DNA of 64,000 bases from contig NZ_JACXBS010000001.1 in NCBI RefSeq assembly GCF_014698015.1, positions 1 to 64,000 of the forward strand, in the 5' to 3' direction. The notes beneath the pieces are model-generated. The model was not told where the DNA came from and did not search any database. It saw only the letters and a program-made list of their open reading frames with translations. Every line of letters starts with the position of its first letter. Positions within the stretch are counted from its first letter, which is position 1. The stretch is from Kocuria sp. cx-455 (lineage in GTDB: Bacteria; Actinomycetota; Actinomycetes; Actinomycetales; Micrococcaceae). A program made the position numbers and the translations under genes. This document shows, one piece after another, positions 23,479 to 34,556 of this stretch.

Positions 23479-23724
23479 GGTATGCCCTTCACACGTGCGA
23501 ATGATGTGTTTACATACACTAACCCGTGAGTAGCCGCCGTTCCGTTAGCTCGCGAGAGTCCTTTCCGAGCCTCCCGACCCGGTTTCGCCGGTAATTCCAA
23601 GCAATCAACCCCCGCCTTAACCCAGGGGAACGGGTAGGTTAACGGTAGTCGTTTTCAGGTGCCCGGTACGGGCGGATCCACGGATGCTCGGCAATGGGCT
23701 GGGCATCGCACGCGAGGAGTTCTC

Positions 23725-25275
23725 ATGGTCACCCGGACCCTCCCTGCAATCCGCCGGTTTGGCGTGATCCTGGGGTACCTCCTGGTGTACGTGTTGATCT
23801 GGGCCGGTCTCGCCATGCTCATTGCCGCGATCGGCATCCGATACTACTTCGGCAAAATCTCCTTCGGGCAGATGCGCCTCAACATTGTCACCTTGGAAAC
23901 CGACGGCGGCGGTGGTTCCCTGGTCTGGATGGGCATTCTGGGCATCGGTGTACTACCCCTGGTCATCACCGTCGGCATTGCGGTGTGGCAGTATTTCCGG
24001 CGCCGCAAGCGCCGTCGGCTGGGGTGCGACACCCGGCCCCACGGCAAGAAATGGGCCATGCGCGGGATCTCGACCGCCCTGGTGGCCGCGGTTGCGGCGG
24101 GCGGGACCACGGCGTTCGCCTCCACCGTGGGTATCGGTGACTACATCCGTTCGGCCAGTTCGCCGTACAACATGGGCGATTACTACGCGCAACCCACGGT
24201 CACCAGCGCGGACGCCAAGCGCAATCTGGTGACGATCTACTTGGAGTCCGGTGAGCAGACCCTCGCGAATGACGAGCACTTCGAGAAGGACGCGTTCGCT
24301 CCCCTCAAGGACGTGACGCGACCCGAGGACGGCTGGCAGAGCATCGAGGACTTCAACCAGTACGAGGGCGGCGGCTGGACCATGTCCGGGCTGGTTTCCA
24401 CGCAGTGCGGTGTACCGCTCAAGGGCGTGGGGGCGTCGGTGGACAGCGGTTCCCCCGACCAACTCGTCGGCAGCATGAACAGCTACCTGGGTGGCCTCAC
24501 CTGCCTGGGCGACATCCTGGCCGAGCAGGGTTACACCAACGTGTTCCTGGGCGGCGCCAACCCGTCCTTTGCGGCCAAGGGCACCTTCCTGGCGAACCAC
24601 GGGTACACCAAGGATCTGGGCCTCGATGACTGGCGCGCCGCCGGGGAACCCGAGGAGAGCTTCCGCAGTGACTGGGGCCTGAGCGATCAGCGCCTCATGG
24701 CCAACGCCAAGAACGAGATCGATCAGCTGTACGCCACGTCGGTGCAGACGGGCCAGCCGTTCAACCTGTCCATGCTCACCCTGGACACCCACGAACCGGT
24801 GCACATTTACGATTACTGCACCGTGGACACCGACAGCGAAGTGACCTCCGCGTTCTTCTGCTCCATGACCCAGGTGGCGGACTTCGTGGAATATATGGAC
24901 CAGATGGGATATCTCGAGGACACCTCCGTGGTGATCATGGGTGACCACCTCAAGCACATGAGCGCCGGCGACGCCTTCCACGAGCAGCTGGGTGGGAACA
25001 CCAACCGCACGATCTTCAACCGGATCTGGGTTCCGGGTGAGACGGGCACCCCCGAGACCCGCTCCGGCGCCGATCAGCTCAACATGTTCCCCACCCTGCT
25101 CGAGGCCGCCGGGCTGACCCTGGAGAATCGCGAGGCCGGGTTGGGCGTTTCCGCGTTCACCTCTGACATCCCCGGCAGTTCCGCGCAGAGCTTCGAGCCG
25201 GATCCGTACAAGGACCTCTTGGAATCCCGGTCGGAGAAGTTTTACTCCGGGGCTTGGGCCAGCACCGCACCGTAA
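23725..25275 (+). CDS. LTA-synthase/phosphoglycerol-transferase-like membrane sulfatase-fold enzyme
   Basis: 516 residues. Three N-terminal TM segments (about 12-35, 65-85 and 110-130) precede an extracellular alkaline-phosphatase-superfamily domain: LVTIYLESGEQT at its start (metal Glu), MSGLVSTQCGVPL with the nucleophile Thr position of LtaS-like enzymes, TNVFLGGANPSF, TLDTHEPVHIY and VVIMGDHLKHMSA with metal-binding Asp/His. Enzymes of this type transfer glycerol-phosphate groups to glycolipid or polysaccharide on the outer face. The ATG at 23725 follows GAGGAG. It is monocistronic and convergent with recQ. The exact acceptor is unknown. Confidence 0.85.
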   Translation: MVTRTLPAIRRFGVILGYLLVYVLIWAGLAMLIAAIGIRYYFGKISFGQMRLNIVTLETDGGGGSLVWMGILGIGVLPLVITVGIAVWQYFRRRKRRRLGCDTRPHGKKWAMRGISTALVAAVAAGGTTAFASTVGIGDYIRSASSPYNMGDYYAQPTVTSADAKRNLVTIYLESGEQTLANDEHFEKDAFAPLKDVTRPEDGWQSIEDFNQYEGGGWTMSGLVSTQCGVPLKGVGASVDSGSPDQLVGSMNSYLGGLTCLGDILAEQGYTNVFLGGANPSFAAKGTFLANHGYTKDLGLDDWRAAGEPEESFRSDWGLSDQRLMANAKNEIDQLYATSVQTGQPFNLSMLTLDTHEPVHIYDYCTVDTDSEVTSAFFCSMTQVADFVEYMDQMGYLEDTSVVIMGDHLKHMSAGDAFHEQLGGNTNRTIFNRIWVPGETGTPETRSGADQLNMFPTLLEAAGLTLENREAGLGVSAFTSDIPGSSAQSFEPDPYKDLLESRSEKFYSGAWASTAP

Positions 25276-25321: not shown

Positions 25322-27190
25322 TCACGCGTGCGCGCCGAGCGCCTCCAGCACCGCGTCCCCGTACTCCGCGAGCTTCTTCACGCCCACGCCGCTCACGGCG
25401 CCCAATGCTCGCACACTCGTGGGCTTCGCCTCCACGATGCCCACGAGCGTTGCATCCGAGAACACCATGTAGGGCGGAATCTGCTTCTCCTTGGCGACCG
25501 ACGTGCGCCATGACCGCAGGGTCTCGAAGACTTCGCGGTCCGCCGTCCCCAAACCCTCGGCGGCCGAAGCGCGGGCGCCCCCGGCGGAGCGAGGAGCGCG
25601 CCCGCGAACCGACGACGTCGGCGCCCTGTCGACCGCCAAGTCCAGAGTGACGTCGCCGCGCAACACGGGACCGGCGTTCGGACCGGGGACGAGCACGCCG
25701 TAGTCACCCACGGCCTCCACGATCCCGCGCGCGAGCAGCTGCCGCAGCACCGAACGCCATTCACGCTCGGTCAGCTCCGTGCCGATCCCCCACACGCTCA
25801 ACTCGTGGTGGCGTGATTCCACGGAACGCTCGTTCTCACGGCCGAGCAGCACGTCGAAGACCTTGCCCGAGCCGAATTGCTGACTGCGCTCGCGCTGCAA
25901 TCGGATGAGCGTGGAGAGCAGCTTCTGCGCGGGCACCGTCGCATCCCACATCTTTGGCGGTTTCAGGCACGTATCGCAGTTGCCGCACGGCTCGGACTCC
26001 TGGCCGAAATAGCGCAGCAGTTGCACGCGCCGGCACGAGACGGTCTCGCACAGGGCGAGCATCGCATCCAGGTGCGAGCGCGCATTGCGCATGTGCAGTT
26101 CGCTGCCCTCGCCGCGGTCGATCAGGCGGCGCTGGTTGACGACGTCGCCCAGACCGTAGGCCAGCCACGCGGTCGACGGGAGCCCGTCGCGTCCCGCGCG
26201 GCCCGTCTCCTGGTAGTAACCCTCGATGCTCTTGGGCAGGTCCAGGTGCGCCACGAAGCGCACGTCCGGTTTGTCGATGCCCATGCCGAACGCAATGGTT
26301 GCAATGATCACGATCCCCTCTTCGCGGAGAAACCGTTCCTGGTGGTCGTGCCGCACTGATGCGTCCAAACCCGCGTGATAGGGCAGCGCCGCGATCCCGT
26401 GCTTCTCCAGCCACTCAGCGGTGGTTTCCACGCTCTTGCGGGAGAGGCAATAGACGATGCCTGCGTCGCCGTCGTGTTCGGTGGTGATGAATTTCAGCAG
26501 CTGGTCGCGGCCGCGGTCCTTGGGCTCGATCCGGTACTGGATATTGGGGCGGTCGAAGTCGGAGACGAAATGGACGGCGTTCTCCATGCGCAGACGCTCG
26601 GTGATTTCGCGATGCGTGCTGCGGGTGGCCGTGGCGGTCAGCGCAATCCGAGGGACATGGGGGAACGCGTCCGCAAGCACGGAGAGGCCCAGATAGTCGG
26701 GGCGGAAATCGTGGCCCCACTGGGCAACACAGTGCGCCTCGTCAATGGCGAAGAGTGCGATCCGGGCCCGGCGGAGCAGGTCCAGGGTGCGCGGCAGGAT
26801 CAGTCGTTCGGGTGCCATGTAGAGCAGATCGATGTCGCCGGCGAGCAGTTGTTGTTCCACCGCTTGAGCCTGCTGGAAATCCAGGGAGGAGTTCAGGAAG
26901 GCCGCTCGAATTCCCACTGCCTCAAGTGCTGCCACCTGGTCCGACATGAGCGCGATCAGAGGCGAGACCACGATCCCGGTGCCCTCCCGGAGGATCGAAG
27001 GGATCTGATAGCACAGCGATTTCCCGCCGCCGGTGGGCATGAGGACCACCGCATCTGCCCCGCTCATCACCTGATCGATGATGGCGGCCTGTTCACCGCG
27101 GAACTCGTCGTAGCCGAAGACGTCGGAGAGGACGCTCAGGGGTGTGGGTGCGGCGTCGACGGTCTGCATAGCGGTGTGGTGGTCCTGCAT
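25322..27190 (-). CDS. recQ: ATP-dependent DNA helicase RecQ
   Basis: 622 residues. Walker A is [15 protein letters not shown], the DEAH box is [20 protein letters not shown], and motif VI is [15 protein letters not shown]. The zinc-binding element ([12 protein letters not shown], then [11 protein letters not shown]), a winged-helix RQC region (about 410-510) and a C-terminal HRDC domain (about 545-620) follow, the full RecQ plan. It unwinds forked and recombination DNA 3' to 5'. The ATG at 27190 has GGAGA just upstream; a GTG nine bases further up and an ATG at 27169 are alternatives. It is convergent with the LTA-synthase-like gene. Confidence 0.95.
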
Positions 27191-27237
27191 GGTCTCCACA
27201 CTATGTCCGGTTCCGGATGCAGAAAGACCCGAGCCAA

Positions 27238-28797
27238 TCAGTCCTCACGCGGGGGCGCCGTTTGAACCTCCGACACCGGGGGCAGATCCATGATGACCGT
27301 GGTTCCTTCTCCCTCGACCGAGCGCAGCTCCACGGTCCCGCCGTGCTGCTCCACAATCGTGCGCACGATCACGAGCCCTAGTCCCGTACCGGGGATCTGC
27401 TGATCCGCGGCGTTCGAGGCACGGGTGAAACTGGTGAACAACAAATCGATGTCCTGAGCTGGGATTCCCATCCCCGTGTCCTCGCACGTCAATCGCGCCC
27501 CGTTGCCGTCGGGTGTCCGGGAGAGGGAGAGGGTCACTGTGCCACCCGGCGGGGTGAACTTCACGGCATTGCCCACCACGTTGGTGATGGCACGTTCCAA
27601 TCGGTCCCTGTCCCCCAGCGCCGGCCAGGTTCCCGCAAGTTCCTCCGTGAGGGTCACCTGACCCCTCGTGGCCTGCGGCACGAGATTGGTCATCACCCGG
27701 GAGGCGCAGTCGGCGAGGTCCAGCTCGCGGTAGTGCCTCGAGCGACCGTCTTGCTCTTGGTCCAGCTTGATGATCAGCAGCAGGTCCTCGATGAGCACTT
27801 GCAACCGGTTGGTATTGCGCTGGACCACGTTCAGCACACGATCTTGCTCCGGAGTGATCTTCCCGAAGTCCCCGTCCTGCAGCATTTCCACGTAACCGCT
27901 GATGGAGGTGAGCGGGGTGCGCAGCTCGTGGTTCGTGGTGGATACGAACATGGATTTCTGCCGGTTCAGCTCGTGCAGTTGCTCGACCGTCCGCTCGCGC
28001 TGAGTGACCACCTCCCTGGCCTCCTTAACCGCCTCGTTGAAGGTCTCCGCGAGGTGGATGAGTTCCACGGCACCCCGCGAGGTGTCCGCAACGGCGTCGG
28101 CTTCCCCATGTCTTTGTCGAGCCACGGTGCGCTGCAGATTGCGCAGGGGAGCGGCCAAGAGCTGGTCCACCCGGCGCAACGCCACGAGGATCACGGCCGA
28201 GGACACCAGCGCGGCCGCGAGCAACGCTATATTGGCCACCCTCATGGACCGGTTCAGTTCCGTCCTGCTCTGCGTCCGCAACTCCACCGCGGTGTCACTG
28301 AGACTGCCCAGCTCGGTCAGAGCCTCATCCATGGCCGCCGCGGTCTGCTCCAGGTTGATTGTCGACCGCGGGGAGGAACCATCCGGCCTGCGTGTCAGGA
28401 CCAGCCATTCATCCACGGCCTGGTTCATGCGTTGGATCTGGGACAGGCGCCCTGCCGCGACGGTCTCGAGCCGCTCCTGCGCATCGGTCAGGTCAGCGGT
28501 CGCCCGCACGTAATCCTGCGCGAAGTTCTCATCCTGGCTGATGACGTACCCCCGCGCGGCGGTCTGGGCGCGCAGTAGGGCCCCTTGCATTTCGTGGGTC
28601 GCGTCCACGAGGGGCGTAATGGTGCTCCGGGTCGTCTCCACGTGCTCCCGCACCGATGCCAGTCCCCACGCGGCCGTGGACCCCGTGATCAACAGTGCCA
28701 CGAACCACAGGACCACCATCCGCTGCAGGATGACGCGTACTCTACGGTGGCTCGCACTACCCAACCGTGCGCGCATGCGCTGAACCCGGGAACTCAC
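27238..28797 (-). CDS. CHASE3-HAMP sensor histidine kinase
   Basis: 519 residues. TM1 (about 28-47), an extracytoplasmic CHASE3-like helical domain (about 50-185, with [17 protein letters not shown]), TM2 (about 189-207), HAMP, then HisKA with the phospho-accepting H290 ([20 protein letters not shown]) and an HATPase_c domain with [21 protein letters not shown] and [10 protein letters not shown]. The start is the GTG at 28797, which overlaps the glycosyltransferase stop (GTGA). It is the last gene of the RR-HEAT-GT2-HK operon and presumably phosphorylates the response regulator encoded first. Confidence 0.9.
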
Positions 28798-30239
28798 GAG
28801 TCCACCTCGGTGAACCCCGAGCGGGTCATGGTCCCCCACTTTTGCTGGCGTCCCGTCAGTGCGGCGAACCAGCCCTCCAGACGCCACCACGCGGTGAGTT
28901 GACGATATCCCGCGTTCTCGAGCACGGCGGCTATCAGGGTGATCCCCAGATCCCGCCAGCGAGGGTACTTGTGGTAGCTCAGTTCCTCCACGGTCACGGC
29001 CGCCAGGGTCACAATGATGGCGTAGGCGTAAGCCACGAACATGAAGAGCAGGAAGTACTGCCATGACACGAGCCCCAGGGCGAACCCGAGGACAATGAGC
29101 GCCAATCCGGCGAGCTCCAACAGCGGGGCGATCAGCTCGAAGATCCAGTAGTAGGGCACCGCCATGAGGCCCAGTCGACCGTAGCGGGGATTGAACAGCA
29201 TGCCCCGGTAGGCCCACAGCGTCTCCCACAGGCCTCGATGCCACCGTGACCGTTGTCTGCGCAGCACGGGAGCGGTGTCGGGCACCTCGGTCCAACAAAT
29301 GGGCTCGGTCAAGAATGTGACCCGGTAGGGCTTACGCTGCCGCCGAAAGGTCTTGTGTAACCGCATGACCAGCTCGAAATCCTCACCGATGCTCTTGGTG
29401 TCGAAGCCACCCACCGAGATCAGCGCGTCACGGCGGAACACGCCGAAGGCCCCGCTGATCAACAGGAGCGCATTGATACGGGACCATCCGGCCCGTCCCA
29501 GGTGAAAAGCACGCAGGTATTCCAAGACCTGGATGTCCGCAAGCGGCTTTCCGGGCATCCGAACATCCAGCACGCGTCCGCCCTTCACCCGGCACCCGTT
29601 GGCGGCGCGGATGACCCCTCCCGCGGCCACGGTGGTGATCGGGTCCTCAATGAACGGCCGGGCCACCGCGAGCAGCGCCCCGGGGTCCAGGATGGAGTCC
29701 GAATCGACGAACAGCACGAGGTCCTCGCGGGCCAGGTTCACGCCCGCGTTGACCGAATCACTACGGCCCGAGTTGGCCTTACGCACCACCGTGAGCCGGG
29801 TCCGCCCGTCGCGGGGCACGTGAATACTCGTGGGCGCTTCCAGAACTGCCACGTCCTGGGGCATCCGGCGTGACACCGGGACCAGGTCGAAGGCTTTGCG
29901 CAGCACCTCGAAGCCGTTGTCGGTGCTGCCGTCGTCCACCACAATGACCTCGTGGTGCGGGTGTTGCAGGGACAAGAACGATTCCACGGCCACGCGGATC
30001 CCCATCTCCTCGTTATGCATGGCCGTCACCACGCTGATTCCCGGCATCGTCCGGGACCGCATGAGTTCCTCCCGACCGGCGAACGGGACCCGCCGCCGAT
30101 GCGACACGAAGTCCACGGTCGCAAGCACGATCATCGCCAGGTAGGAGGTGTTGATCAGCAGGAAGTACACGAGAACGGGCCACGCGACGAACGCGAGCAC
30201 GGCCGCAACGGCGGCGCGCAAGAACTCAATCCAGTCCAC
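28794..30239 (-). CDS. Processive family 2 glycosyltransferase (PgaC/BcsA-like)
   Basis: 481 residues. An N-terminal TM pair precedes a GT-A domain with EVIVVDDGSTDNGFEVL, the acceptor/metal motif LFVDSDSILDPG, GEDFELVMRL (catalytic-base region) and the processive-enzyme motif QRSRWHRG; three or more TM helices follow. This is the plan of membrane synthases that make and extrude beta-linked polysaccharides such as poly-N-acetylglucosamine or cellulose. The GTG at 30239 (VDWIEF) follows AGGAG at 8 bases, overlapping the HEAT gene by 14 bases. Its position between a HEAT protein and a histidine kinase suggests signal-gated polysaccharide production. The sugar is not predictable. Confidence 0.88.
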   Translation of the reverse strand: MDWIEFLRAAVAAVLAFVAWPVLVYFLLINTSYLAMIVLATVDFVSHRRRVPFAGREELMRSRTMPGISVVTAMHNEEMGIRVAVESFLSLQHPHHEVIVVDDGSTDNGFEVLRKAFDLVPVSRRMPQDVAVLEAPTSIHVPRDGRTRLTVVRKANSGRSDSVNAGVNLAREDLVLFVDSDSILDPGALLAVARPFIEDPITTVAAGGVIRAANGCRVKGGRVLDVRMPGKPLADIQVLEYLRAFHLGRAGWSRINALLLISGAFGVFRRDALISVGGFDTKSIGEDFELVMRLHKTFRRQRKPYRVTFLTEPICWTEVPDTAPVLRRQRSRWHRGLWETLWAYRGMLFNPRYGRLGLMAVPYYWIFELIAPLLELAGLALIVLGFALGLVSWQYFLLFMFVAYAYAIIVTLAAVTVEELSYHKYPRWRDLGITLIAAVLENAGYRQLTAWWRLEGWFAALTGRQQKWGTMTRSGFTEVDS

Positions 30240-31323
30240 GGGTGGCACTCCTCATGGCGACTAGTTGCAGTGCGTAGGTGGCGGGCAGCTCGGCGGGACC
30301 CGGTGCATCGGCAAATGTCCGCAGCCGCTCGCGGCCCCTCGGCCCCAGCTCGGCGAGGGCCACGGCCGCGCGTTCGGACAGTCTCGGACGGGTGTCCGCA
30401 ACGAGCGGAGCCAACGCGTCCACCGAGGAGGGCAGCCCGATTTCTTCGAGGGCGTCCACGGCAGCGAGCGCCACCGTCTCGTCCGAGTGCTGCGCGAAGC
30501 GGGACAGCATGGGCAGATCGAACGACCCCCCGATCTCGCCGAGTGCTTCCACGAGCGCCGCGAGGGTCCGGGGGTCCTCCTCCACGGCGAGCCGTTTCCG
30601 AACCACCGGGGCCGCTCGCGGTAAGGGGCGGGTGCCGATCACCGTGGCCGCGACGTGGCGCACGGAAGGTTGCGGGTGCGCCGTCGCCTCCGCGACCACG
30701 GGGGCCACGGCGTCGTCGAACGCGCACAGGGACTCCACGGCCACCCAGCTGGGCAGCCCGCGCGGACGACGTCGTGGGGCCACCGCGCGCATCACGGGCC
30801 GGGCGGCCTTGCTGTCGCCGAGCAGTGTGAGGGCGCGCGCTGCGGCGACCACCACGTCCATGGACCGGTCCTGGAGCAGGGGCACGATCTTGGAACCCGA
30901 TTCGCGCTCCCGCATCAACCCGAGGATCCAGGCCGAGTACGCGCGCCGGATCGATCGCTTGGAGGCCAACCCCCGCAGCGCCCAGTCCGCCCGACCGTGC
31001 GCGCGCAGTACCCGGGCCAAGGCCCGGGCCGGTTCCCCCTTGACCTTGGAAAGCATGGTGGAGACCGTACGGTCGACCACGCGTACGCGCCGGTGGGTCA
31101 CCGTGGTCAACCGGCCCAAGGCGGAGGAGTCATCGTCCTCCCCCGAGGCCACCGCGAGCATGGCGGGTCTCAGTTCATCGAGGACCTGGCGTTCCCGGCG
31201 TTCGCGCCATAGCCGCCCGGCCCGCGAGCCGAGGGTCACGGCGAGCAGAAAAATCGCGGCCCACACCAGGACCCACAACACCACGGTCAACAGCTGCGGG
31301 GCCACCAGGGTGGGGGATACCAC
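30226..31323 (-). CDS. Membrane-anchored HEAT-repeat protein
   Basis: 365 residues: one N-terminal TM helix (LLTVVLWVLVWAAIFLLAVTL), a basic stretch, then about seven helical HEAT-like repeats (for example VVAAARALTLLGDS, TLAALVEALGEIGGS, TVALAAVDALEEIGLPS, LSERAAVALAELGPRGR). Such scaffolds bind partner proteins; PBS-lyase-type HEAT repeats occur in signalling assemblies. It stands 7 bases after the response regulator and overlaps the glycosyltransferase, so it may link the phosphorelay to the synthase. No enzyme motif is seen. Confidence 0.85.
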   Translation of the reverse strand: MVSPTLVAPQLLTVVLWVLVWAAIFLLAVTLGSRAGRLWRERRERQVLDELRPAMLAVASGEDDDSSALGRLTTVTHRRVRVVDRTVSTMLSKVKGEPARALARVLRAHGRADWALRGLASKRSIRRAYSAWILGLMRERESGSKIVPLLQDRSMDVVVAAARALTLLGDSKAARPVMRAVAPRRRPRGLPSWVAVESLCAFDDAVAPVVAEATAHPQPSVRHVAATVIGTRPLPRAAPVVRKRLAVEEDPRTLAALVEALGEIGGSFDLPMLSRFAQHSDETVALAAVDALEEIGLPSSVDALAPLVADTRPRLSERAAVALAELGPRGRERLRTFADAPGPAELPATYALQLVAMRSATRGLD

Positions 31324-31330
31324 GTATGCC

Positions 31331-31714
31331 TCACCGCCCCCGGCCGAGCAGGGTGTTGACCCGGTGCAGCAACTCTCGCGGACTGAAGGGCTTGGTCACG
31401 TACTCGTCAGCGCCGGTGTTGTAACCGTCGTCCACGTCCGTGTCCCGGGCGCGTGCGGTCAGCAGGAGCACCTTGACCGGCTCGAGTCGTTGCTCGGCCC
31501 GGATCTGACGCAAGACATCCAATCCGCTGAGTCCCGGCATCATGACGTCCAGCACCACCAGGTCCGGTGTGGTGTCCTTGAGTACCTCGAGGGCCGCATT
31601 GCCGTCCGCCACGGCTCGAACATTGAAACCGGCCTGTTCAAGTTTGAAGACCACGAGGTCCCGAATATCGGGGTCGTCGTCCGCCACGAGAACTGAATGT
31701 TGGGCAGGGGTCAC
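31331..31714 (-). CDS. Single-domain response regulator (CheY-like)
   Basis: 127 residues, only a receiver domain: acidic pocket D12-D13, phospho-accepting D56 (LVVLDVMMPGLSG), TAR switch residue and conserved Lys in EYVTKPFSP. There is no output domain, so it must act by protein contact, plausibly with the HEAT protein or glycosyltransferase encoded next. The GTG at 31714 follows GGAGTTCCCTC. Its upstream region contains two G9 tracts (31733-31741 and 31756-31764). It is the first gene of a four-gene operon. Confidence 0.92.
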   Translation of the reverse strand: MTPAQHSVLVADDDPDIRDLVVFKLEQAGFNVRAVADGNAALEVLKDTTPDLVVLDVMMPGLSGLDVLRQIRAEQRLEPVKVLLLTARARDTDVDDGYNTGADEYVTKPFSPRELLHRVNTLLGRGR

Positions 31715-32036
31715 GAGGGAACTCCGTGTGGTGGGGGGGGGTGAGTACGCTCCGCGGGGGGGGGTGCGGATGAGGAGCTACCACCAAGAATATGCGAGTT
31801 CATAGAAAATACCGGGATTGCCCGCTTTCATGCCGCGGGCCCTGGCTGTTCTCGGGTTCTCCCGGACGCCGTCGGTGGCCTAGGACGAGCACGCGGGCCC
31901 CACCGGCTCAGCCCTCAGCCTGAGGTGAGGAAAAAGCAGCACCGCGGTCTCAGGGGAGGCAAGTGCACGGATTCCGCGGCGAAACGGCATCTTCCTCACA
32001 TGAGACTTCCGCGCTGCAGAATCCCGACTCAACCCG
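31715..32036. promoter_or_regulatory. Intergenic region with two G9 tracts upstream of the response-regulator operon
   Basis: The 322-base gap has no convincing gene. The notable content is two homopolymers of nine G on the plus strand (31733-31741 and 31756-31764) separated by 14 bases, 19-50 bases upstream of the response-regulator start. The promoter of the operon must lie here or just above. Tracts of this length are slippage-prone, so operon expression may vary. No clear terminator for the ThrE-like gene upstream was found. Confidence 0.55.
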
Positions 32037-33386
32037 TCACTGCGTGAACGGCTTGGAGAAGATCGGGACCATGATGTCGCGGAAATTCTCCTCGTCGGCC
32101 ATCTCCTTGCGGAACACACGACCTGGGTACTTGTGGGTGAACTGCTTGCGGCGGCTGGCCCACAGAGCCTCGGAGGCGAGGTATTGACCCAGGATGCCCC
32201 CCATGGACAGGCAGAACGCGGTGATGGCGGCGTCCAACAGCGATTTGTTGGCGCCATCCATACCGAAAATCGTGCCCAGCACACCCTGGTACACCAGCAT
32301 TCCGGGGAACAGCGGCAAGAGCACGACCATCAGTGAGGCGTTGGACGCCATATTGAGTGCGCGCGTGAGGACCACGCACACGGCCCCGGCCACAACTGAT
32401 GCGATCAAGATCGCCCCGAAGGAACTGATACCGGCGGTGGTCAGGGACAGCATGAGAAGAGTCACCAGACCGCCGAACAGACCAAGGGCGCCGAGCTTCC
32501 AACCGCGTCCTCCGGAGGCGAGCGCAAAGCCGGCCGACACCAGAACGGCACCGAGCACTGACAGCCCCCAGCGGGTGTCGTCCATCTCGAGGTGTTCGAT
32601 GAAGTTCATGTCCTCACCGAAGATCGGCTGCATCAAATGGATACCCAGAGTCACACCGGCGACCAGGCCGGCGGTGCTGGTGACCACGTCCAAGATGCGG
32701 CCGGAGGCAGAGAGATACCATCCGGTGATGACATCGTGCACCGCGCCGTAAGCGGCGATACCTGCCAACCACGCAGCCAGGGAGGCCACGATGCAGACCG
32801 CGGGCTGCGACGTCGAAAAGAAGAGGCCTGAGACGCATGCGCCCATGACCGCGGTGAAGCCACCCGCCGCGAGACTGAAAATCGAGGGCGCCTGAGTGCG
32901 CACGACCAGCGCGTAGACCGCGTACACCGCAGCGGCAATAAGGGCGGCGCTGATAGTCGTGACCAGCCCGCCGCCCAGAATGAGGGAGAACCCGATACCG
33001 AACATCGCGAAGCCAGTGGCCGTCAGGCGATGCCCGATGACACGCGATTTCGCCGTGACTTCTTCCATCTCTCTGATGGCCTCTTCAATGGAGAGCTCAT
33101 TCATCACGAAGGCTTCGAGTACCTCACCGGTCTCGGTGCGCAGGCCAATGTCCAGCGTGCCCGGTTCGGATTCGAGGATGCGGGTGCTGGGAGCGTCGTC
33201 GGGCTCTTCCTGGTGACTGATGGTGACCTGACCCAAACTGACACTCACGGTGACGTTGGGCATCTCGGTCTTTTGGAAGATCGACAGGAGGGACTTGGTG
33301 GTACTGGCCGATCCCGAACCGCTCCGGATCAGAGCATCCGCGATCAGAAAGGCCAACTTATAAGCGGCCTGTTCAGTGGAGAGCAT
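32037..33386 (-). CDS. ThrE-type threonine/serine exporter family protein
   Basis: 449 residues. A hydrophilic N-terminal domain (1-130; VSVSLGQVTISHQ, ending EEVTAKSR) precedes about ten TM helices, the architecture of fused ThrE carriers. Typical segments are ALIAAAVYAVYALVVRTQAP and LPLFPGMLVYQGVL. ThrE exports threonine and serine by proton antiport. The ATG at 33386 is used; a GTG three codons earlier is possible. It is divergent from the FemABX-like gene. Substrate range is inferred from the family. Confidence 0.9.
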   Translation of the reverse strand: MLSTEQAAYKLAFLIADALIRSGSGSASTTKSLLSIFQKTEMPNVTVSVSLGQVTISHQEEPDDAPSTRILESEPGTLDIGLRTETGEVLEAFVMNELSIEEAIREMEEVTAKSRVIGHRLTATGFAMFGIGFSLILGGGLVTTISAALIAAAVYAVYALVVRTQAPSIFSLAAGGFTAVMGACVSGLFFSTSQPAVCIVASLAAWLAGIAAYGAVHDVITGWYLSASGRILDVVTSTAGLVAGVTLGIHLMQPIFGEDMNFIEHLEMDDTRWGLSVLGAVLVSAGFALASGGRGWKLGALGLFGGLVTLLMLSLTTAGISSFGAILIASVVAGAVCVVLTRALNMASNASLMVVLLPLFPGMLVYQGVLGTIFGMDGANKSLLDAAITAFCLSMGGILGQYLASEALWASRRKQFTHKYPGRVFRKEMADEENFRDIMVPIFSKPFTQ

Positions 33387-33605
33387 GACGGTCACCCTAA
33401 CGTCACTTCACAGATGCCGCCAATGACGTTAGAAACGGAACAACACACCTGATCAGACCCGGGTGCCCCTGTCGACTCGCACCGGGCGACTGTAGTCTGT
33501 GCAAATGCGGATAATAAGAAAATCTGAGGACCTCCGGGACACCTCCCCCCAGAACGCATCACCGATCGCCGCGACCTGGCCCCTACTAGCGGAAAGCCCC
33601 GCACT

Positions 33606-34556
33606 GTGATTCTCGCTCCGCTTCAAGGGACCACGTGGCGCCGGGTCCAGGAGGCCGAAGGTCGCCGTGTACTGCCCGGCAAGGGAGAAGGATGGATGGC
33701 ACAGGCCATCGTGGAGGAGCGGCGCGTCGGCCGCTACCTGTACTGTCCCTACGGTCCGGTGGCTCGAGACGACGCATCCTTCGACGCCGCACTGCACTGG
33801 CTGTTCACCCAGGCTCGAGAAACCGGATCGTGGTTCTTGCGCGTGGAACCACCCAGCCCGTCGGGCTGGTTACGGCAAGCGACCGACAAGGAGATCTTCC
33901 GGCGCCGAACGGCCCTGCAACGCCGAGGCTTCCGACGAGCGGCTCGCGCGCTGCAGCCACTCCGCACCCGGTGTCTGGACCTGACGGTGGACGAGCCGGA
34001 ACTGCTGGGAGCCATGACCGGCACCAACCGCACCCTCCACCGCAGTACGGCAAAACGTGGCCTGACAATTGAGGCCAGTCACGACCCGGGTGACATCCAC
34101 CATTTGATCAGTCTGCTGGCCTCGACCGCGCAGCGTCAGGACTTCAGGTCCCGTGACTCCACACATCTCAAGACCCTGGCCGAGACCGCACTCCCCACCG
34201 GCGCCGGCACCCTCTTTCTCGCCCGTCAGGATGACCACGTGCTCAGCGCGAACCTGGTGATCGATGACGGCGGTGTTCGAATGTTCCTCCACGGTGCATC
34301 CGATCCCGCGTACCGCAAATTGCGAGCACAACAATCGCTCACGGTCGCGGCCGTTCTGGACGGTCGGGAACGCAGACTCGAGGCGGCCGATCTGTTCGGA
34401 ATCGCGCCCAATGACGATCCCGAACACCCGTGGGCAGGGTTCACCAAGTTCAAAGCATCGTTCGGCGGTCATGTCCTGGAACATCTGGGGGCCTGGGACC
34501 TACCCGTTCGACCCGCCGCGTACCATGCACTGCGGGCTGTGCAGAGGCTCCGGTGA
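33606..34556 (+). CDS. FemABX-family aminoacyltransferase / GNAT-like protein
   Basis: 316 residues of double-GNAT type. RCLDLTVDEPELLGAMTGTN, then RTLHRSTAKRGLTIE and DGGVRMFLHGASDPAYRKLR, LTVAAVLDGRERRLEAADLF and a final GFTKFKASFGGHVLEHLGAWD are characteristic of the Fem family that adds amino acids to the peptidoglycan bridge from aminoacyl-tRNA. Kocuria- and Micrococcus-type cell walls carry such bridges, so cross-bridge synthesis is plausible. The GTG at 33606 has GGAAAG upstream. It converges on the DUF3995 gene. Confidence 0.8.
   Translation: MILAPLQGTTWRRVQEAEGRRVLPGKGEGWMAQAIVEERRVGRYLYCPYGPVARDDASFDAALHWLFTQARETGSWFLRVEPPSPSGWLRQATDKEIFRRRTALQRRGFRRAARALQPLRTRCLDLTVDEPELLGAMTGTNRTLHRSTAKRGLTIEASHDPGDIHHLISLLASTAQRQDFRSRDSTHLKTLAETALPTGAGTLFLARQDDHVLSANLVIDDGGVRMFLHGASDPAYRKLRAQQSLTVAAVLDGRERRLEAADLFGIAPNDDPEHPWAGFTKFKASFGGHVLEHLGAWDLPVRPAAYHALRAVQRLR

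Follow-up and report, generated by a model that had tools for sequence, protein, structure and literature searches.

The four-gene operon and its products

Within a window of 64,000 nucleotides from Kocuria sp. cx-455 (contig NZ_JACXBS010000001.1, positions 1 to 64,000), we analyzed four linked genes on the minus strand. Read from high to low coordinates, they encode a response regulator (RR), a HEAT-repeat protein (HEAT), a family 2 glycosyltransferase (GT2; the window protein and its homologs are called GT) and a sensor histidine kinase (HK), as follows:

31331..31714, minus strand: RR, a stand-alone PhoB-type receiver of 127 amino acids (PF00072 Response_reg, 106.6 bits)
30226..31323, minus strand: HEAT, a membrane-anchored HEAT-repeat protein of 365 amino acids (PF13646 HEAT_2, 72.3 bits)
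28794..30239, minus strand: GT, a GT2 synthase with transmembrane helices, 481 amino acids (PF00535 Glycos_transf_2, 68.2 bits; PF13632 Glyco_trans_2_3, 67.9 bits)
27238..28797, minus strand: HK, a CHASE3 sensor kinase of 519 amino acids (PF05227 CHASE3, 34.2 bits, cut-off 28; PF00512 HisKA, 69.1 bits; PF02518 HATPase_c, 103.2 bits)

The genes are as closely packed as the initial annotation had described: 7 bases lie between the RR stop and the HEAT start, HEAT and GT overlap by 14 bases if GT starts at 30239, and GT and HK overlap in the sequence GTGA. An alternative GT start at 30248 would yield a protein of 484 amino acids and an overlap of 23 bases with HEAT; the Kocuria homologs of 481 amino acids use the start at 30239. 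The HK open reading frame extends upstream to 686 amino acids, and the GTG at 28797 represents the plausible start.

No output domain was found in RR by a Pfam scan, which bears out the earlier claim of a receiver lacking a DNA-binding output, and the closest solved structure is that of the PhoB receiver (1.8e-26). Residues D13, D56 and K108 of RR are invariant in all 40 aligned receivers, and so are E114 and R118, which we take to correspond to the dimer face of PhoB. At the position of PhoB R91, presumably the partner in one dimer salt bridge, the alignment with PhoB places V94, and the residue is thus not kept. In HK, H290 is invariant (27/27 aligned kinases), as are residues 291 to 293 and 295 to 298, while T294 is nearly so. 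The phospho-accepting histidine and aspartate are intact in HK and RR, as in an orthodox two-component pair.

Between 36 and 39 of the 39 aligned GT proteins conserve D106, D182, D184, E289-D290 and Q332-R-x-R-W336, which we take to be the D, DxD, ED and Q(Q/R)xRW catalytic motifs typical of processive-type GT2 enzymes. With these motifs and its C-terminal membrane helices, the window GT has the features of such an enzyme. Structural matches of its model include hyaluronan, chitin and cellulose synthases, with 14 to 18% identity to the hyaluronan and cellulose synthase entries, and the model of HEAT gave fold matches to HEAT/alphaRep solenoids. Hydrophobic segments are absent from RR, whereas HEAT has one (residues 1 to 36, the only one in that protein), GT several and HK two regions. 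The alignments were chosen subsets (A1 to A4, with 42, 39, 40 and 27 rows), and the profiles used below were built from members within set length limits.

Conservation of the gene set

Searching with the HEAT protein, we found matches in 14 of 59 near relatives, among them 7 of 27 Kocuria genomes (source included); the 10 genomes that this search covered from elsewhere in the family gave no match. At the level of the order, 39 of 297 genomes matched, the source again included. From these we fetched 40 loci, 6 from Kocuria and the remainder from 34 of the 38 other matched genomes of the order; the fetched set does not include G047, G051, G075 and G283, nor two second places. The initial annotation had called for a neighborhood search and had conceded that a gene set confined to this genome would speak against it. 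This concern can be set aside, since RR, HEAT and GT occur together in 40/40 related loci. Counting the window, a co-oriented RR gene was present at most 1.9 kb upstream of HEAT in 41/41 loci, and a GT match was present downstream of HEAT in all 41, the GT of locus L047 being split. With automatically chosen starts, HEAT and GT were spaced by between -23 and +98 bases at 38 of the 40 fetched loci, the outliers being L047 and also L052, for which trimming of the GT start was not possible. With starts chosen in the same way, RR and HEAT overlapped by 4 bases (spacing of -4) in 21/40. HK was co-oriented within 7 kb in 30 of the 41 loci, and in L047 it lies past an insertion.

When the open reading frames from the 41 loci were clustered, RR, HEAT and HK merged into one cluster and GT formed a second, both present in 41/41 loci. 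A third cluster reached 41/41 and held no module genes; its representative is on the opposite strand, and its members were shadow reading frames as far as inspected. The next most common cluster was limited to 15 of the 41 loci. Additionally, we fetched the surroundings of 14 Kocuria GT2 paralog genes, and none of these stretches, some of which were short or near a contig end (L175, L182), contained a match to the HEAT, RR or HK profile. Because RR, HEAT and GT are found together in all 40 loci, while RR and HEAT are beside 0 of the 14 paralogs, their linkage is not due to chance.

Since this first set of loci had been chosen by HEAT, a second selection was started from GT. GT matches were found in 59 of 396 genomes of the phylum at E <= 1e-40. 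Among the 29 best loci, a subset of all phylum matches from which the window's own locus was excluded and in which one locus (L083) is shared with the HEAT-selected set, short flanks showed HEAT directly upstream of GT in 28; the exception, L089, is at a contig edge and has no sequence upstream of GT. In 20 GT-selected loci with longer flanks, partly from the same genomes, HEAT was detected by profile in 19, and the remaining locus (L129) has at this position a reading frame of 344 amino acids with an N-terminal hydrophobic stretch and no profile match. An RR match on either strand was present within about 3.3 kb upstream of GT in 16/20. In two of these loci (L121:10664-12889 and L124:6789-9116), the gene after GT encodes a protein of 741 to 775 amino acids that has no Pfam match and, judged by eye, a hydrophobic stretch near its N terminus.

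To look beyond the phylum, we compared GT with plasmid sequences by tblastn, which matched 56 records. Eleven of these were opened (H1 and H4 to H13); H2 and H3 are from the same species as H1, H14 to H40, with identities of no more than 31.4%, were regarded as paralogs and left unopened, and 16 more records were unlisted. HEAT is beside GT in 10 of the 11 opened loci, in nine by annotation and in Paenibacillus by profile, while the Emticicia locus encodes a hypothetical protein at the HEAT position. RR is present upstream in 7/11 (Mesorhizobium, Haloarcula, Salinirubellus, Halosolutus, Emticicia, Erythrobacter and Devosia). In Haloarcula the order RR-HEAT-GT-HK is the same as in the window, and the receiver is 45% identical to the window RR. 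Overall, RR-HEAT-GT was seen in members of the actinobacteria, alphaproteobacteria and haloarchaea; Deinococcus, Bacillales and Bacteroides additionally gave HEAT-GT with no receiver.

In the diderm Mesorhizobium (L132), RR and HEAT are separated by a gene whose product has TPR repeats and then a YaiO barrel (PF19413 at 26.6 bits, against a cut-off of 23.9). Export parts of synthase-dependent machineries, PgaA and BcsC for example, presumably have this layout, and the Mesorhizobium protein would resemble PgaA in particular; no such partner would be expected in the actinobacterial operon of the window. YaiO is also annotated in Emticicia, and Erythrobacter and Devosia have annotated TPR genes at the position of the Mesorhizobium TPR-YaiO gene, while the stretches opened for Erythrobacter, Devosia and Bacteroides carry no annotation of a YaiO barrel. 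An Hpt gene is annotated nearby in Mesorhizobium and Devosia. In Halosolutus, genes for a sugar-phosphate nucleotidyltransferase and glmS are located just downstream of the module, which is a weak hint at an amino-sugar polymer.

From these comparisons, HEAT and GT emerge as the steadiest core. RR accompanies them very often, though not in every case outside the order, and HK varies most of all. The initial annotation had treated the four families as one set; this holds for the HEAT-GT core and has to be relaxed for the other two.

A candidate phosphorelay-controlled synthase

According to the initial annotation, the operon would represent a dedicated phosphorelay for polysaccharide export with no cyclic di-GMP (c-di-GMP) step. 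We found no GGDEF match in the source genome or in any of the 27 Kocuria genomes examined, and no PilZ match in GT or elsewhere in the source genome. Among the 23 opened-module genomes covered by the GGDEF search (E <= 1e-3 in one batch and 1e-10 in the other), 15 had no GGDEF match, namely 7 Kocuria (one of them with the split GT), G052 and 7 of the 11 genomes searched at 1e-10, while the remaining eight had from 1 to 51 or more. The module therefore exists without c-di-GMP synthesis. This is true of the source genome and of these 15 but does not extend to the module family as a whole. Indeed, in some relatives from the same phylum GT has GGDEF neighbors, with an RR-GGDEF gene in L121 (6504-7451) and a GGDEF-EAL gene in L129 (7012-9051), both by Pfam; L124:12918-13859 resembles the former by its N terminus. 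The HEAT-GT core seems to have stayed the same while its regulator was swapped. The reading as a polysaccharide-synthase phosphorelay is in agreement with the conserved gene set and with a GT model resembling hyaluronan, chitin and cellulose synthases, but its freedom from c-di-GMP is not family-wide.

We favor, with modest confidence and on the basis of sequence comparisons, a synthase-dependent exopolysaccharide module whose synthase is switched post-translationally by a phosphorelay acting through the receiver and the HEAT subunit. On the cytoplasmic side, GT would polymerize a nucleotide sugar, threading the growing chain through its own membrane channel. HEAT would be a dedicated subunit of the synthase, anchored by its one N-terminal helix and with its solenoid in the cytoplasm. 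The CHASE3 kinase would sense an extracytoplasmic cue and phosphorylate the lone receiver, which in turn would bind the HEAT solenoid, or GT via HEAT, and alter the activity or assembly of the synthase in one direction or the other. RR and HEAT would then stand in for the PilZ or other c-di-GMP-binding parts of cellulose or poly-N-acetylglucosamine (PNAG) systems. As for the sugar of the polymer, our guess would be N-acetylglucosamine. More tentatively, and as a possibility on which we would put slightly less than even weight, the module may belong to a widespread and ancient class of synthases whose GT2 polymerase is gated directly, by way of a HEAT subunit, by a single-domain receiver in its phosphorylated state.

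Several observations weigh against this proposal, the GGDEF neighbors described above among them. A nearby co-oriented HK is missing in 10 of the 41 HEAT-selected loci, seven of which are from families f14 and f15; the same 10 loci have kinase-like genes on the opposite strand within 7 kb. In the 40 fetched loci, no reading frame strongly matched both RR and HEAT or both HEAT and GT. Furthermore, RR is missing nearby in 4 of the 20 GT-selected loci (L118, L120, L126 and L127) and in 4 of the 11 plasmid loci (Deinococcus, Paenibacillus, Planococcus and Bacteroides), and L117, L119, L121, L123 and L124 have their nearest lone RR on the opposite strand. Because of the loci without a nearby RR, HEAT must also have a role independent of RR. 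Finally, HEAT proteins are much less alike across phyla than the receivers. A profile of the HEAT juxtamembrane region gave weak matches in two haloarchaea and in none of the nine others among the 11 plasmid proteins, and it missed several proteins from the same phylum; as this signature did not carry across phyla, it was rejected as proof of cross-phylum orthology. Outside the phylum, orthology of HEAT is suggested by position, by the architecture with an N-terminal helix (a hydrophobic one was found in 8 of the 11 plasmid proteins at the HEAT position) and by generic repeat similarity.

Alternatively, HEAT-GT could be a constitutive polysaccharide synthase, with RR and HK forming a conventional phosphorelay that signals elsewhere, for example by passing phosphate to another regulator, and that would control polymer production in an indirect way. 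RR and HK are indeed linked more loosely than HEAT and GT, the receiver is PhoB-like, and the Hpt genes of Mesorhizobium and Devosia would fit multi-step relays. We nevertheless consider this explanation fairly unlikely, given the co-oriented RR gene upstream of HEAT at every order-level locus, its 4-base overlap with HEAT in about half of them, and the recurrence of the RR linkage in haloarchaea and alphaproteobacteria. Such a persistent linkage is hard to account for without functional contact.

In another reading, the receiver would be a phosphate-responsive assembly or localization factor, RR and HEAT recruiting or dimerizing the synthase at particular membrane sites while its catalytic rate stayed unchanged. 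HEAT/alphaRep solenoids serve as binding scaffolds, and the invariance of E114 and R118 at the presumed dimer-face positions would suit such a role, whereas V94 does not preserve what we take to be the salt-bridge partner of the PhoB dimer. EpsW of Myxococcus xanthus, a lone phospho-receiver, has been proposed to favor a dimer of EpsZ, as stated in the portion of the article consulted (PMC12802240). On balance, we regard a pure effect on assembly or localization as unlikely.

The same EpsW-EpsZ pair is the closest demonstrated precedent for our proposal of a receiver acting on the synthase through HEAT. In the consulted portion of that article, EpsW activates exopolysaccharide synthesis post-translationally via EpsZ, a large monotopic phosphoglycosyl transferase that catalyzes the first step of a Wzx/Wzy pathway (PMC12802240). 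In both cases a lone receiver is encoded with a sugar-transferring target. However, the target is a phosphoglycosyl transferase in one case and a GT2 with a HEAT partner in the other, and a HEAT adaptor is not described for EpsW in that portion of the text.

Among synthase-dependent systems, the best NCBIfam resemblance of the window GT was to TIGR03937, the PgaC/IcaA model, but its score (112.1 bits) was far under the cut-off of 422.3 bits, and we rejected an assignment as PNAG synthase. The PgaD-type partner of PNAG systems responds to c-di-GMP, whereas the module has HEAT and RR in its place; moreover, the four-gene operon of the window has no deacetylase. An assignment as cellulose synthase (BcsA/CelA) was likewise rejected, with 40.9 bits against a CelA cut-off of 699.1 and no PilZ domain. 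The likeness to BcsA and hyaluronan synthase is in the fold of the GT model and in the presumed catalytic motifs, while the low identity and the missing PilZ match set it apart. These low scores might mean that GT is a membrane GT2 which makes a short glycan or glycolipid without polymer export and is stabilized by HEAT. We find this very improbable in view of the Q-R-x-R-W motif, the hyaluronan-synthase-like model, the TPR-YaiO outer membrane partner in Mesorhizobium and the glmS and nucleotidyltransferase genes adjoining the module in Halosolutus.

A further system for comparison is NfrB-NfrA of Escherichia coli, which according to the part of the article available to us also combines a glycosyltransferase for a secreted polysaccharide with an outer membrane partner and local regulation (PMC8669469). 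In the same part, NfrB is described as a c-di-GMP-binding protein with DgcJ as its activator (PMC8669469), whereas the source genome of the module has no GGDEF match.

Known post-translational control of synthase-dependent polysaccharides frequently involves c-di-GMP, as put in the consulted portion of PMC12802240. If our proposal is correct, the receiver-HEAT-synthase unit would represent a second mode of control, a phosphorelay counterpart of c-di-GMP/PilZ that works also in GGDEF-free genomes, and GGDEF-free bacteria such as Kocuria could switch matrix production fast. It would also give a function to proteins annotated just as "HEAT repeat domain-containing protein" and "glycosyltransferase family 2." The module is of a known kind, the synthase-dependent polysaccharide systems, and its regulatory arrangement may be new. 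In the open PMC literature (which excludes subscription papers and preprints), judged by titles and the starts of abstracts among the matches listed, neither a HEAT-GT2 nor an RR-HEAT-GT module was found described, and the mentions of HEAT in the parts seen of PMC10434189 and PMC12419801 concern unrelated matters.

History and surroundings of the locus

In a GT tree of 50 rows, the five Kocuria rows were nested inside family f17, beside L048 and L049. Support was 100/99 for the fork of Kocuria with L048 and L049, 95/89 for the next one out and 87/25 for the fork with all f17 rows. Because of this nesting, and since the sampled other genomes of the family have no HEAT match, horizontal acquisition is indicated; Kocuria probably received the module by a single transfer and then retained it patchily. 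The GT of one Kocuria genome (G025; L047:2768-8301) is split by an insertion, so that the module is probably dispensable in that genome. Two integrase-core genes of 331 amino acids flank the insertion and enclose a TetR-like gene; both the near-identity of the pair and the TetR likeness were judged by eye. This insertion is probably a composite transposon.

In nine loci (L048 to L052, L055, L058, L059 and L068), a Rho-like gene adjoins the module, confirmed by Pfam in L068. L051, L052 and L059 have a PrfA-like gene on the other side (by eye), and threonine-synthase-like genes are found further upstream at Rho-flanked loci, with a PALP match in L059. We rejected the Rho- and PrfA-like neighbors as functional partners because they represent housekeeping surroundings, and this location is best read as an old site kept by vertical inheritance.

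In the window, ThrE (32037-33395) and RecQ (25322-27199), the latter 38 bases downstream of HK, were likewise discarded as module parts, since, leaving aside the opposite-strand cluster, clusters of neighboring reading frames are present in at most 15/41 loci. The surroundings also include a membrane sulfatase-fold gene at 23659-25275, possibly LtaS- or phosphoglycerol-transferase-like, which is a guess, and a FemAB-family gene at 33606-34556. Both are further cell-envelope genes outside the conserved module.

The leader of the operon holds the following features:

31733-31741 and 31756-31764, minus strand: a pair of G tracts of 9 bases each, which read as C on the coding strand, by homopolymer count
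31787..31792, minus strand: putative -10 element TATTCT, by eye

The two G tracts are 14 bases apart and represent two of only three homopolymer runs of at least 7 bases in the window. At their position, no G/C run of at least 8 bases was found in the six Kocuria relatives compared. The tracts might possibly mediate phase variation of the operon, an assembly error in such runs being conceivable as well. An element similar to TATTCT/TACTCT was recognized by eye upstream of RR in the compared Kocuria sequences.

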